A DNA stretch of 64,000 nt from Planctomycetota bacterium (GTDB lineage: Bacteria; Planctomycetota; Planctomycetia; Gemmatales; Gemmataceae), in contig JACPPF010000034.1 of the NCBI GenBank assembly GCA_016191165.1, positions 1 through 64,000 of the forward strand, in the 5' to 3' direction. The number at the start of each line of letters is the position of its first letter. Position 1 is the stretch's first letter. Below the pieces are notes generated by a model. It searched no databases. It was not told the origin of the DNA and worked only from the letters and a program-made list of their open reading frames with translations. The position numbers were made by a program, and so were the translations under genes. This document shows, in pieces, positions 2,155 to 8,504 of the stretch.

Positions 2155-3072
2155 CTACCCCCGCGGGTGAAACTGCCGATGCACGGCTTGCAGCCGGCTG
2201 CGATCGACGTGGGTGTAGTGCTGGGTGGTACGGATATTGGCGTGACCCAGGAGTTCCTGCACCGTGCGCAGGTCGGCGCCGCCCGCCAGGAGATGGGTCG
2301 CGAAGCTGTGCCGGAGCGTGTGTGGGCTGACCCTGGCGTTGAGGCCGGCCCGGCGGACGTACTTCTTCACCAGGATCCACAGCATCTCGCGCGTCAGGCG
2401 CTTGCCCCCTTTGCTGACGAATAGCCAGGGATTTCCCTTATCGCCCGGCGTCAACAGCGGCCTTTGATCTTGCAGGTAGATTTTCAACGCCGACACCGCC
2501 TGCGCGCCCAAGGGCACGACGCGCTGCTTGCTTCCCTTGCCGGTGCATTTGCAGAAGCTTAATTCCAGGTGCAAGTCGGCAAGCTGCAAGTTGACGACCT
2601 CCGACGCCCGGCTGCCGGTGGCGTAGAGCGTTTCCAATAGAGCGCGATCGCGCAGGTAGAAGCGATCCTCGTTGCGCGGCGCTTGCAACAGTTTCTCCAC
2701 ACTCTCCGGGCTGAGCACGTGCGGAATGCGCTCCCAGAGCCGGGGCGAGCTGAGCAGCTCGACCGTGTTCTGTTCGACGCGCTCCTCGAGCCGCAGGTAA
2801 CGGTAGAACATCTTGGTCGCAATCAGGTTCCGCGCCACGGACGGGGCGGCCAGGCCGGCTTCCTTCAGATGGCCCAGGTAATTGGTCAATTCGCGGACGC
2901 TCGGCTTGAGGTAGTTGGGGACCCCACCACTGGCGACCCAGTTGTGAAACTTGGTCAAATCGCGTTCGTAGGCCAGGACGGTATTCTTCGCCATGCCGCG
3001 CTCCGCGGCGAGGTAGCCACGAAAGGCGGTCAGGTCAGCCTGCAAGGCGGCAAGGTGGGTTTTGGCGGTCAC
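2155..3072 (-). CDS. xerD: Tyrosine recombinase XerC/XerD family
   Basis: A 305-aa site-specific recombinase. The N-terminal SAM-like DNA-binding domain covers about residues 8-110 and the catalytic domain about 120-300. All catalytic residues are present: R155 (YATGSRASE), K179 (GKGSK), H251-x2-R254 (HTLRHSFATH), H277 (LLGHANI) and the nucleophile Y286 (TQHYTHV). The length and the terminal HPRG match chromosomal XerC/XerD enzymes, which resolve chromosome dimers at dif, rather than phage integrases. Whether it is XerC or XerD cannot be settled by eye. No attachment site or phage gene is next to it. Confidence 0.88.
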   Translation of the reverse strand: MTAKTHLAALQADLTAFRGYLAAERGMAKNTVLAYERDLTKFHNWVASGGVPNYLKPSVRELTNYLGHLKEAGLAAPSVARNLIATKMFYRYLRLEERVEQNTVELLSSPRLWERIPHVLSPESVEKLLQAPRNEDRFYLRDRALLETLYATGSRASEVVNLQLADLHLELSFCKCTGKGSKQRVVPLGAQAVSALKIYLQDQRPLLTPGDKGNPWLFVSKGGKRLTREMLWILVKKYVRRAGLNARVSPHTLRHSFATHLLAGGADLRTVQELLGHANIRTTQHYTHVDRSRLQAVHRQFHPRG

Positions 3073-3237: not shown

Positions 3238-4074
3238 CTACTCTGGCGTGAGGAGTACCGCCAAGACCTTCTGACAGCGCTGTCGCATGGCATCGGTGTT
3301 GCGCTGAAAGAAAACATCCAGATTGAAGCCGACGATCTTACTGAAAAAGGCGTAGGTGCTGATCCTGTCGTCGTCCCCCAGTACTCCAGTAATCACCAGC
3401 ATCTTTGCGTTCTTGTATCGTCGGACGACGGCTGTGCTCGCCTGCGCCGATACGATGGACAAGACTGGCAAGTAGTTTTCAATCGAAGCGTTCATAGCAA
3501 ACCTCAGATCAGCAGCCTGCCGTTTCGCATCGGCGCTCTTGTAACCTTGGCGAGCTTCAAAAACAGCCCCTCGCAGTTGCTTGATACGTTTCTCCGACAA
3601 ACCGAGGTACGTTCCGCACCTCTTCAACCAGTCAACCACACGCTCACGGGCATCGGGCTTCCTGGTGATATGCTCAACATCGATTCGCGCATCAAGGGTC
3701 AGGGTCGCCTTGGTACCATCTTGCTTTTCAATCTCGAAGAACCAGCCCACCTCCTCCTCCGACAACAACAGGGAGTCCTTGATGATTGCCCGGAAGAGGT
3801 TGTCCACGCCTGCGCCAAGCTGGCGATAAATCGAGGTCATTCCGCCTGCGGCCTTGTGGGCCGCATACATCAAATCGGAATCCAGCCCGATCCAATGATA
3901 AAACGGGTCTTCCCCGTAAAGCACCTTGAACTGTTCGAGGGTCACACCGGCGCTGTCCTCAGTACCGAACTTGGGCTTGTAATGGGCGCAGGCGTCGAGC
4001 GGATCGAGGAGCAGATTCAGATAGCGTTGCTCTGAATCCGGCGGAGGTAGATACAGCCGCTTGGTTCTTGGCAT
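3238..4074 (-). CDS. Unrecognised protein paired with DNA methyltransferase; candidate restriction endonuclease
   Basis: A 278-aa soluble protein that starts 2 bp after the methyltransferase stop, so the two are co-transcribed. It has no signal peptide or membrane segment. Residues 172-190 (FEARQGYKSADAKRQAADL) are dense in Glu, Lys, Asp and Arg and could hold a PD-(D/E)XK-type active site; the following YLPVLSIVSAQ looks like the next core strand. This assignment is inference from position, size and composition. No named restriction-enzyme family is recognised with certainty. The region is poorer in GC than its neighbours, as expected of transferred defence genes. An alternative is a methyltransferase accessory or specificity factor. 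Confidence 0.6.
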   Translation of the reverse strand: MPRTKRLYLPPPDSEQRYLNLLLDPLDACAHYKPKFGTEDSAGVTLEQFKVLYGEDPFYHWIGLDSDLMYAAHKAAGGMTSIYRQLGAGVDNLFRAIIKDSLLLSEEEVGWFFEIEKQDGTKATLTLDARIDVEHITRKPDARERVVDWLKRCGTYLGLSEKRIKQLRGAVFEARQGYKSADAKRQAADLRFAMNASIENYLPVLSIVSAQASTAVVRRYKNAKMLVITGVLGDDDRISTYAFFSKIVGFNLDVFFQRNTDAMRQRCQKVLAVLLTPE

Positions 4075-4076
4075 GT

Positions 4077-5399
4077 CTACCCCCTCTTCATGAAAACAAC
4101 CGCCTCGTGCAAGCCGCTCTTGCTTTGCCGCTTCCGCATCTTGTCAATCCGCTCCAAGGCAAACCCGAAGTGTCCAAAAATACCAGCCAGAATCTCGTCG
4201 CTCGGCAACGGGTTGTCGTAGAACTTGCTGTTGCCGATGACGTAGGCCAAACGGCACCGATCCTCGCAAACCTTGGCGATCTCGCCAGCGTGATCGTACA
4301 AGTCGTTAAAATACTTGGTTACATAATGCGCCATTAGGTTGCCGCCGTTGTGGATGTTTTCGATATACGGCTTGAGCAGCTTGGCGATAAGCTCATTCTT
4401 GGGCTTGACGCCAGTGGAGAGTACGGATGTTGCCTTGCCCCAGGTGCCGCCAATAGCATCGGTCTCAAGTTGGCCCACAGCCTTCGCATTCTCGATGAAG
4501 TCGAAAAAGAACAAGTGTGGTCTCGTCTCCCTGGCATAGCTGAATCGATTCGGGTACGGCGGCGATGTAATCACCGATGATACCCTTCGGCCTCGTAAGG
4601 GCAGTACCCTGGATAGCTCTTTGCTGTTGCCGCTGTAGATGGTAACGTCGGACTTCGGGAGATCGGACACCGAATGCAGGTCAGCGACCATGTTTTGCAG
4701 TTGATGCTCGAGAACCTCGGCAAGATCGATGGTAGGGAGTGATTTCTCTGCATAGGTCAGGGAGACGTGATTGTGCTTGGCGTTGCTGACCGGGATCAGG
4801 ATGGCAAGCGCCCCCATGCGCAGGAGATCATGGGTTTCCGTGGTCTCGGCTCGCTCCATTAGGAGTTTGCGGAGGCAAACAAGTTGGGCGAGGTTCCCTT
4901 TCGACCACCAGCGTTCCGGGAAGTTAATTTTCGGTATGTGCTGTGCTTGCTCTGCCAGGTACAAAGCCGGACGATCCTCAAACGGAACGGCATTCAACTT
5001 GTTCCGAAATGCCTTCATGAATTCGGTGAAGTACCGTTCGATCTTCTCGATGGCCCGGTAGGTTCGGGTCTTCACGGTGCCCACGAAATGGAGGTAGGGA
5101 TTGATCTCCACGCTGCAAGCCGGAATGCCTCGGTATTTCATGCAGAGTGGCACTGTCCCGACACCACTGAAAGGATCGAGAACGAGGTCAGTCGCCGATA
5201 GCCCGAAGTGTTTCGCAATGTCTTCTGCCAAAGCGGGAGAGAAACTGGGTGTCAGTCGATACCAGCGATGGATGGGCATGTCCATCTTACCCCGAAACGT
5301 GACCGCCTTCGTTCCTCGGTTGGTAAACGTTGGATCAAGTTCAAACAAAAGCGGTTGTGTCCTTGTCATTCCGGGGTCGCCAGTCGGACCAAATTTCAT
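4077..5399 (-). CDS. DNA methyltransferase (SPPY type) of a probable type II R-M system
   Basis: A 440-aa AdoMet-dependent DNA methyltransferase. The AdoMet-binding motif I is DPFSGVGT (residues 75-82, after a strand ending VLD) and the catalytic motif IV is SPPY (279-282), the form common in N4-cytosine and some N6-adenine enzymes. Motif I precedes motif IV with about 200 residues between them, an alpha-like order in which the target-recognition region sits in the middle. The ATG at 5399 is preceded by GGAGGG only a few bases upstream; a second ATG at 5369 has no ribosome-binding site. The adjacent 278-aa protein is the likely nuclease. The target sequence is unknown. Confidence 0.85.
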   Translation of the reverse strand: MKFGPTGDPGMTRTQPLLFELDPTFTNRGTKAVTFRGKMDMPIHRWYRLTPSFSPALAEDIAKHFGLSATDLVLDPFSGVGTVPLCMKYRGIPACSVEINPYLHFVGTVKTRTYRAIEKIERYFTEFMKAFRNKLNAVPFEDRPALYLAEQAQHIPKINFPERWWSKGNLAQLVCLRKLLMERAETTETHDLLRMGALAILIPVSNAKHNHVSLTYAEKSLPTIDLAEVLEHQLQNMVADLHSVSDLPKSDVTIYSGNSKELSRVLPLRGRRVSSVITSPPYPNRFSYARETRPHLFFFDFIENAKAVGQLETDAIGGTWGKATSVLSTGVKPKNELIAKLLKPYIENIHNGGNLMAHYVTKYFNDLYDHAGEIAKVCEDRCRLAYVIGNSKFYDNPLPSDEILAGIFGHFGFALERIDKMRKRQSKSGLHEAVVFMKRG

Positions 5400-5407
5400 T
5401 TCCCTCC

Positions 5408-5749: not shown

Positions 5750-7522
5750 ATGGCAATGGAATCGAAAGCGATCAAGGGCGGCGGTAGAAAGCCGCCTGCG
5801 CCGCAAGCAACCAACACCGATCAGATGGCCGCCACCATCGACACCGACCTGGTCGGTGCGATTTCGGATGAGCCGGCCGAGACAACGCCCGCACCCAAGG
5901 CCAAGATTCAGGGGAAGGTCATCCGCAAGGATTCGCCGGTTCACGGATCGACCCAACCCGTCGCACAGGAGACCATTGCCACGCTTCCCCCCGAAGATTC
6001 AGACGAGGAGCCGGTCATGACCGCGCAAAAGCCGTCCAAAGCAGGCGAGGCGCCGGCCCCGCGCAGTCCCGAAAAAGCCGCGACGGTTTTGGGGGACTAC
6101 AAACTCCTCAAGAAACTCGGTCAGGGCGGCATGGGCGCCGTCTACAAGGGGCAGCACACCAGCCTCGACCGGATCGTCGCCATCAAGATTCTCGCCAAGG
6201 AACTGGCCAGCAAGGAATCTTACGTCAAGCGCTTCCTGCGCGAAGCGAAGGTGATGGCCAATCTCGATCATCCCAACATCCTGCGCTGCATCGATGTCAA
6301 GGAGCAAAAGGGCCTCCACTTCATCGTCATGGAATTCGTCGACGGCGGCAGCGTCGAGGGCTGGCTGAAGAAGCTCGGCAAATTCTCCGTTGGCGACGCC
6401 TTGCACATCGTCCTCAAGACCGCCGCCGCCCTGGAACATGCCCACGCCAAGAAGATGATCCACCGGGACATCAAGCCCGACAACATCCTTCTCACCAGCG
6501 ATGGCATCGTCAAGGTCGCCGACCTCGGCCTGGCCAAGGATACGTCCGAAGACACATCCCTCACCAAGACCGGCGCCGGCGCCGGCACGCCGATCTACAT
6601 GGCGCCGGAACAGGCTCGCGATGTCAAGCACGTGGATGCCCGGGTCGATATCTACGCGCTGGGCGTGATGATGTACGTCTTCCTCACGGGCAAGGCGCCC
6701 TTCGAGGGCGCCACCCTGGTCGAGCTGATCTCCGCCAAGGAGAAGGGCAAGTTCGATCCCATTCGCAGGCACAACGATGAGGTTCCCACGAAGATCGATC
6801 TCATCGTGGACAAGATGCTCGCCAAGGATCCCAAGACCCGCTATGCCAGCTGCCAGGAGGTGATCGACGAGCTGGAACCGCTGGGGCTGGCCAACGACGA
6901 GTTGAGCTTCCTGGGAGACAACCAGAACGCGACCCTGGCCCCGGCGTCGAAGACGGCCAAGACGCAAGGCCCCGCCGCCAAGGTTGCCGCCACCCAGGCG
7001 CCTGGACCCAAGGCCGGCGCCACGCAGGGACCGCGCAACAAGGTCGCCGCCGTTACCACCGCTCCCAGCGCGCCGGCCGAATCAACCCACATCGAGGAAG
7101 AGGACGAAGTCGCGCATCAAAATGTCTGGTACTGGCAAATGGTGACCGACGACGGCAAGAAGATCACCAAGAAGCTCAGCACCGAGCAAGTCCGCGCCCT
7201 GGTCAAGACCGGCAGCATCAGCGCCGTGGCCAAGCTTAGCAAATCCGCCACCACGGGCTATCGAGCCGCGGGAACCTTCCCCGAGTTTCACGCCGCTTTC
7301 CAGGCTCTCGACATCGCTTCCAAGGCCAACGTCAAGGGGCACAAGTACCGCCAGCGCTACAAGGACATCGAGGAGGAAGACGAACGCCGGCGCAAGTACG
7401 GCTGGATCTCCCGCATGTTCAAGAGCTTCGGCGGGTTCCTTTTCGGCCTGCTCTGGATCACGTTGATCCTGGCTGTCGTCGGCGGAGCAGCGTATTTTGG
7501 GTGGAAGTACATGAATCCGTGA
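5750..7522 (+). CDS. Membrane-anchored Ser/Thr protein kinase with GYF-like domain
   Basis: A 590-aa PknB-like kinase. A disordered Pro/Ala-rich N-terminus (1-115) precedes the kinase domain (about 116-375): glycine loop GQGGMGAVYKG (124-134), VAIK lysine (146), catalytic HRDIKPDN (238-245), a DLG in place of DFG (258-260) and MAPEQ of the activation segment. A low-complexity Ala/Thr/Lys linker follows, then a GYF_2-like segment beginning WYWQMVTDDGKKI, and a single membrane helix near the C-terminus (GLLWITLILAVVGGAAYFGW). The kinase would face the cytoplasm, anchored by its tail. Planctomycetes carry many such kinases; its target is unknown. Confidence 0.92.
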   Translation: MAMESKAIKGGGRKPPAPQATNTDQMAATIDTDLVGAISDEPAETTPAPKAKIQGKVIRKDSPVHGSTQPVAQETIATLPPEDSDEEPVMTAQKPSKAGEAPAPRSPEKAATVLGDYKLLKKLGQGGMGAVYKGQHTSLDRIVAIKILAKELASKESYVKRFLREAKVMANLDHPNILRCIDVKEQKGLHFIVMEFVDGGSVEGWLKKLGKFSVGDALHIVLKTAAALEHAHAKKMIHRDIKPDNILLTSDGIVKVADLGLAKDTSEDTSLTKTGAGAGTPIYMAPEQARDVKHVDARVDIYALGVMMYVFLTGKAPFEGATLVELISAKEKGKFDPIRRHNDEVPTKIDLIVDKMLAKDPKTRYASCQEVIDELEPLGLANDELSFLGDNQNATLAPASKTAKTQGPAAKVAATQAPGPKAGATQGPRNKVAAVTTAPSAPAESTHIEEEDEVAHQNVWYWQMVTDDGKKITKKLSTEQVRALVKTGSISAVAKLSKSATTGYRAAGTFPEFHAAFQALDIASKANVKGHKYRQRYKDIEEEDERRRKYGWISRMFKSFGGFLFGLLWITLILAVVGGAAYFGWKYMNP

Positions 7523-7865: not shown

Positions 7866-8216
7866 TCATAAATCCAGGCAGGCACGGACGGCATCCTCGA
7901 TTTTCTTCATGTAGGCGTCTGAAAGGCTTCCAGCCGGTGAGCTTCCAAAACGTGAAGGATCGATGGAACGAACCTGAAAGCCCAAGAAAACCGTTTCCGT
8001 CGGCAAGCCGCTTTCGGTTGAAGGTACGCGAACGTTTGTGGAATAGTCGCGTGTGACATTGGCCCCCTTGGTGCCAATGACGACCGTGACAACGAGCGGG
8101 GACTGGTTGATCGTATCGTTGGAGAGCACCAACACAGGGCGCAAGCCGGCCTGTTCCCGCCCCTTCACGGGATTGAGATTGACAAAGTAAATCTCGCCCC
8201 GTTGAATCGGCATCAC
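7866..8216 (-). CDS. MazF/PemK-family mRNA interferase toxin
   Basis: A 116-aa toxin of the MazF/PemK family, ribosome-independent RNases that cut mRNA at short sequences. The family's N-terminal signature is present (QRGEIYFVNLNPVKGREQAGLRPVLVLSN), as are the central VVTVVIGTKG strand and the late FQVRSIDPSRF element. The gene overlaps the stop of the antitoxin gene by 4 bp (ATGA type), so the pair is translationally coupled with the antitoxin first. Its length is normal and no key element seems lost. Confidence 0.9.
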   Translation of the reverse strand: MMPIQRGEIYFVNLNPVKGREQAGLRPVLVLSNDTINQSPLVVTVVIGTKGANVTRDYSTNVRVPSTESGLPTETVFLGFQVRSIDPSRFGSSPAGSLSDAYMKKIEDAVRACLDL

Positions 8217-8443
8217 ATTCCCTCGAGACCGTCAGCGTCGGTGCTTGAGAATTCCATTTCGATTTGGCGAATTTCCGCCTGGATTTCGGGATCGGCCGCC
8301 ATCGCCGCCATTTCGCCACGAAAATCCGCCGTGCCTACGGGTTTTCGCAGGTTCTGCACCAGACTTTTAATCAACCTGAGTTGCTCGTCTTGGGACAAAA
8401 ACGGCAATTGGTTTTCAATCGTTTGCAACGGGGAACTCGCCAT
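8213..8443 (-). CDS. Antitoxin partner of the MazF-type toxin
   Basis: A 76-aa acidic protein from the ATG at 8443, which follows GAGGA by 9 bp; an upstream in-frame TTG at 8452 is less likely. The N-terminal half (LPFLSQDEQLRLIKSLVQNLR) predicts a helix pair like those of small addiction-module antitoxins. The C-terminus (PEIQAEIRQIEMEFSSTDADGLEGM) is acidic and probably wraps the basic toxin. It overlaps the toxin gene by 4 bp. The name rests on partner and size more than on a family motif. Confidence 0.75.
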   Translation of the reverse strand: MASSPLQTIENQLPFLSQDEQLRLIKSLVQNLRKPVGTADFRGEMAAMAADPEIQAEIRQIEMEFSSTDADGLEGM

Positions 8444-8504
8444 GGGATTCAATCCTCAGTCGGAGGAAATGACAGGAGCAATCGCCACCGTGGACTTGAA
8501 ATGA

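Follow-up and report, generated by a model that had tools for sequence, protein, structure and literature searches.

A type II restriction-modification gene pair in a planctomycete: a catalogued nuclease family with a predicted PD-(D/E)XK core

INTRODUCTION

A DNA methyltransferase gene followed almost without a gap by a gene of obscure affiliation raises the question of whether the two form a restriction-modification system and, if they do, what kind of nuclease is encoded by the second. Such a pair lies in the first 64,000 nucleotides of contig JACPPF010000034.1 of a Planctomycetota bacterium (Gemmataceae), a stretch hereafter called the window. An earlier note, made from the letters of the DNA, had described an SPPY-type methyltransferase (M) and, 2 bp downstream, a 278-residue protein (R) which it could place in no named family; it proposed a horizontally transferred type II system with a new or very divergent nuclease, whose active site might reside in a Glu/Lys/Asp-dense segment at residues 172–190. 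Here, these proposals are examined against profile libraries, predicted structures and related loci. The points that are new are a proposed active site for R and a change of methyltransferase class beside a relative of R.

RESULTS

The gene pair and its composition

Both open reading frames are present on the minus strand in the arrangement that the note had described, each with an ATG start and with 2 bp between them (Table 1). GGAGGG stands just 5′ of the ATG of M, and a purine-rich AAGAGGGGG inside the end of M precedes the start of R, which suggests that translation of R is coupled to that of M. The G+C content of the 2,162-bp pair is 54.3%, whereas the window averages 61.1% (sd 2.1); values as low were found in 2 of 619 windows of equal size, both on the pair itself, and no other 2.2-kb portion of the whole stretch is as poor in G+C. 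GC3 is 0.68 in both R and M, versus 0.79–0.83 in three adjoining genes. The counts on which the note had based its remark about composition (30 of 60 G+C in the line starting at 4141, 42 of 60 in that starting at 6121) are exact.

Table 1. Coordinates of the gene pair, its signals, the candidate active-site residues and neighbouring genes
Feature	Position	Strand	Evidence
M: alpha-class SPPY DNA methyltransferase, 440 aa	4077..5399	minus	ORF, PADLOC, PHROG, M.DraR1 alignment
R: candidate type II restriction endonuclease, 278 aa, PD-(D/E)XK-like core	3238..4074	minus	ORF, PADLOC, fold model
GGAGGGA, ribosome-binding-like, ahead of the M start	5400..5406	minus	
M stop codon, purine-rich AAGAGGGGG inside the M end and 2-bp spacer ahead of the R start	4075..4090	minus	
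R D128, candidate motif II metal ligand, end of strand 122–127	3691..3693	minus	Model and conservation; coordinate from residue number
R residues 173–189: candidate motif III E173-x-R175 (strand 169–175) and motif IV K184, R185, D189 (helix 183–198)	3508..3558	minus	Model and conservation; coordinates from residue numbers
XerD-type tyrosine recombinase gene	2155..3072	minus	
PemK/MazF-family toxin gene	7866..8216	minus	Pfam, E = 2.1e-24
79-aa ORF directly before the toxin gene	8213..8452	minus	

The methyltransferase

M carries FxGxG (FSGVG) at residues 77–81 and TSPPY at residues 278–282; the long variable region between them is a candidate target recognition domain. This is the alpha-class order (FxGxG, target recognition region, (S/D)PPY), which has been described for M.DraR1 (PMC6712171). 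M matched the PADLOC model MTase_II PDLC03224 (E = 4.9e-30) and the DNA methyltransferase group phrog_18146 (E = 9.8e-34), while a profile of its relatives matched structures of N4-cytosine and other amino-methyltransferases. The product is likely N4-cytosine, which is favoured by the SPPY motif and by the similarity of M to M.DraR1.

R belongs to a catalogued family

R matched the PADLOC-DB profile PDLC03512 (REase_II) with E = 1.1e-66, its residues 15–275 aligning with positions 11–273 of 276, and more weakly a second REase_II profile, PDLC03406 (E = 1.5e-13). Searches of Pfam, NCBIfam, PHROGs and PDB chains with R gave no meaningful sequence match, a profile of 21 R sequences found no relative in the PDB, and no relative was found among plasmid, phage and IMG/VR sequences. 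The statement that R fits no named family thus stands for Pfam, NCBIfam, PHROGs and PDB sequences and falls for PADLOC-DB; what it shows is how far the common libraries reach, not a new nuclease. The suggestion of novelty has to be abandoned, as two type II restriction-enzyme models match R and the family, judged by these profile matches, is already catalogued under that description. A weak PDLC03406 match (L074) was rejected as spurious; it lay antisense to a long ORF and had no adjoining methyltransferase.

Predicted fold and candidate active site of R

The fold model of R (14 sequences; mean pLDDT 87.6) runs from helix 78–102 through strands 111–116, 122–127 and 169–175 to helix 183–198 and strand 201–207. 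The R protein of relative L017, 27% identical to that of the window and modelled from an overlapping alignment of 17 sequences, showed the same order and core (mean pLDDT 89.4). Foldseek matches were weak (best E 0.03 for the window protein and 0.007 for that of L017), and the TM-scores of fold matches were near 0.3. With VIA-align, PD-(D/E)XK nucleases dominated the list of 50 rows obtained for each model, at Z up to 8.7; those listed include VC1899, Can2/Card1/Cdn1, EcoO109I, PspGI, BspD6I, BsaWI, PfoI, EcoRII, Ecl18kI, Bse634I, AgeI and HindIII. The non-nuclease rows were few and of lower Z, mainly phosphoribosyltransferases, PRPP synthetases and sugar-phosphate isomerases. A viral fold library gave no informative match to R. 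It is the consistency of the match list, and not any single score, that leads to the PD-(D/E)XK assignment; the note had held that a match to a non-nuclease fold would count against its proposal, and the comparison, modest as its scores are, returned mostly nucleases.

In the model, D128 ends core strand 2 and E173 lies on core strand 3, the places expected of PD-(D/E)XK acidic residues. E173, R175, Y178, D182, K184, R185, A188 and D189 are invariant in the 21 R sequences, as are P203, Q211, R219, Y220, F255 and L274, and D128 is conserved at 90% or more. The position of the motif III lysine is held by Arg175, with K184 and R185 in motif IV, all three of them invariant. E-x-R in place of E-x-K is unusual and counts against a PD-(D/E)XK reading; in such families, the motif III lysine can migrate to motif IV, often as arginine (PMC1913061), and the modelled site fits motifs II, III and IV with the lysine replaced or migrated. 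The Glu/Lys/Asp-dense segment singled out by the note does exist, and no other stretch of the family is as well conserved; the model supports its suggested role, with E173-x-R175 fitting motif III and K184/R185/D189 fitting motif IV.

The same residues would also suit a narrower version of this reading, in which R is a relative of the CCGG family (NgoMIV, Cfr10I, PspGI, EcoRII) with a permuted D…K…E site made up of D128, a basic residue of 175–185 and D189, a CCGG or CCNGG core being read from the start of helix 183–198. Structures of this family recur in both fold lists (PfoI, EcoRII, Ecl18kI, Bse634I, BsaWI, AgeI and Kpn2I in both, NgoMIV and SgrAI with the second model), and PspGI is the top Foldseek match for the L017 model, although VC1899, EcoO109I and Can2 score as well or better. 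The active-site and recognition motifs of the family are known to be permuted, with variants in known members (PMC6344858). D182-x-K184-R185 and D189 are invariant at the helix start; the helix does not carry R-(D/E)R in its literal form, however, which weakens the case for membership without defeating it, and an invariant E173 occupies the canonical motif III position. The SPPY and C5 methyltransferases found beside R (see below) would both suit a cytosine-containing site. Taken together, we consider CCGG-family membership rather unlikely.

Linkage to methyltransferases and probable exchange of partners

Relatives of R were found in 4 of 392 sampled Planctomycetota genomes (its own included), in 13 of 301 from Chloroflexota, and also in Pseudomonadota and Latescibacterota. 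A DNA methyltransferase adjoins R in each of the 26 loci examined, 25 times of the SPPY type (the same family as M) and once of the C5 type; M comes first in the window clade, and all the other SPPY loci have the reverse order, R-M. Linked methyltransferase and candidate endonuclease genes, as expected of type II systems, are present both in the window and in the relatives examined, and this linkage and the family assignments together support the type II pair that the note had proposed. The pair is best regarded as a type II restriction-modification system of known kind, whose nuclease comes from a family that lacks a solved structure. PD-(D/E)XK folds are also found in modification-dependent enzymes, and R might on these grounds be a type IV or type IIM nuclease directed at foreign methylation that stands next to M by chance; linkage at 26 of 26 loci, in several phyla and in both gene orders, is typical of type II and unexpected for a methylation-dependent nuclease, and we deem this reading of R highly improbable.

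In one relative, L006 of Fimbriiglobus, whose R is 63% identical, the gene that precedes R in the same slot encodes a C5-cytosine methyltransferase (Pfam DNA_methylase, E = 5.7e-58; TIGR00675, E = 3.3e-54) whose end overlaps the start of R; the locus spans L006:3886–5843, and no relative of M was found in that genome at E ≤ 1e-10. The exchange of an SPPY for a C5-cytosine enzyme beside R implies a cytosine in the target of R. Since R outlasts a swap to a methyltransferase of different chemistry, it most likely has a sequence specificity of its own and is the likely specificity-setting nuclease. An attempt to read the target of R from the C5 enzyme failed, its best solved relatives, M.HaeIII and M.HhaI, being too distant for specificity to be transferred. 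The swap also bears on whether R could be a non-cutting accessory or specificity subunit of the methyltransferase. R does not closely match any characterised nuclease in sequence, and the scores of its fold matches are modest, as might be expected of such a subunit; an accessory subunit of an SPPY enzyme would not, however, tolerate replacement of its partner by an unrelated C5 enzyme, and the REase_II match in PADLOC and the nuclease-like core with conserved D, E and R/K argue against it too, leaving a non-cutting role very hard to credit.

Within clades, the identities of R and M are alike (81/84, 64/63 and 53/47 for R/M); comparison of the window clade with the rest gives 43% for R and 30% for M. 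Compared with L017 and L004, the window clade has M 66% identical and R only 26%. This mismatch is most simply read as an exchange of R between related systems, a possible reassortment of nuclease and methyltransferase. Tree tests did not establish a formal conflict between R and M (an R tree constrained to group L007 with L017/L004 had p-AU 0.059, and none of the other groupings was contradicted), so the mismatch rests on the identity values. At these two loci (L017:179–2253 and L004:1513–3567), M is 62–70% and R 25–28% identical to members of the window clade, and the gene order is reversed.

At least 7 of 25 relatives (L007, L009, L010, L011, L013, L036 and L037) have an R gene that is interrupted or cut short inside the contig, and two (L004 and L029) have an M gene so affected; some of these broken copies are possibly assembly errors. 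At L009:4956–5813, a single in-frame TAG interrupts the R gene beside an intact M. Both genes of the window are intact.

Probable acquisition of the pair

R and M were sought in six genomes of the same genus and were absent from all of them, and the DNA resembles that of the nearest relative, L005 (80%), only as far as the borders of the two genes. Together with the low G+C content, these observations support the horizontal transfer that the note had suspected. Comparison with an empty site was uninformative, the genes upstream of xerD not being conserved within the genus, and the case for transfer therefore rests on composition and patchy distribution. The XerD-type recombinase gene that adjoins the pair is the genus's conserved chromosomal copy (84–87% identical in genus relatives), and is therefore no evidence for an integrase-borne island. 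Some 2.5 kb from the pair lies a toxin region (7866–8452) with a PemK/MazF-family gene; the 79-aa ORF directly before that gene may encode its antitoxin.

DISCUSSION

With high confidence, we regard the pair as an acquired type II system in which M protects a cytosine-containing target and R, a PD-(D/E)XK nuclease, cuts that same target when it is unmethylated. M would methylate the target cytosine, most likely at N4, and so protect the host chromosome. R would act as a sequence-specific endonuclease, presumably as a dimer, with a site formed by D128 (motif II), E173-x-R175 (motif III) and, in the next helix, K184/R185/D189 (motif IV), a basic residue of motif III or IV taking the place of the canonical lysine. 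A more tentative proposal, which we think possible and no more than that, is that the family as a whole has a distinct PD-(D/E)XK site (D…E-x-R…K-R…D), possibly with CCGG-type recognition, and that its genes reassort freely with partner methyltransferases; were this true, nuclease specificity would be conserved while the protective chemistry changes.

For the host genome itself, the result is an ordinary one, an ordinary type II system. Its wider interest is that R of the window is an intact member of a restriction-enzyme family without a Pfam entry or a solved structure, for which candidate residues can now be named. The replacement of an N4-type by a C5-cytosine enzyme beside the same nuclease provides a natural test of whether the target is kept while the protective mark changes.

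Among known systems, that of M.DraR1 offers the closest comparison for the methyltransferase. M.DraR1 of Deinococcus radiodurans is an alpha-class N4-cytosine enzyme that reads CCGCGG (PMC6712171, PMC10855626); M has the same succession of FxGxG, variable region and SPPY and is 27.5% identical to it over 97% of its own length. The partner nucleases differ, that of DraR1 being of the GIY-YIG type and encoded ten ORFs away, whereas R is PD-(D/E)XK-like and encoded 2 bp downstream. For R, the best full-length match among restriction enzymes is EcoO109I, a PD-(D/E)XK type II enzyme (residues 11–278 of R; Z 7.7, rmsd 5.0, 184 residues aligned, 9% identity), which differs in that R has E-x-R where the canonical E-x-K sits. 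CCGG-family enzymes (NgoMIV, PspGI, EcoRII and PfoI among others) recur in the fold matches of both models, and R resembles them in the acidic and basic residues that open the helix following motif III, but it lacks the literal R-(D/E)R and has the additional invariant E173 at the canonical position. Within PADLOC-DB, PDLC03406 is the best REase_II model for the L004 and L017 relatives, while R of the window is matched best by PDLC03512.
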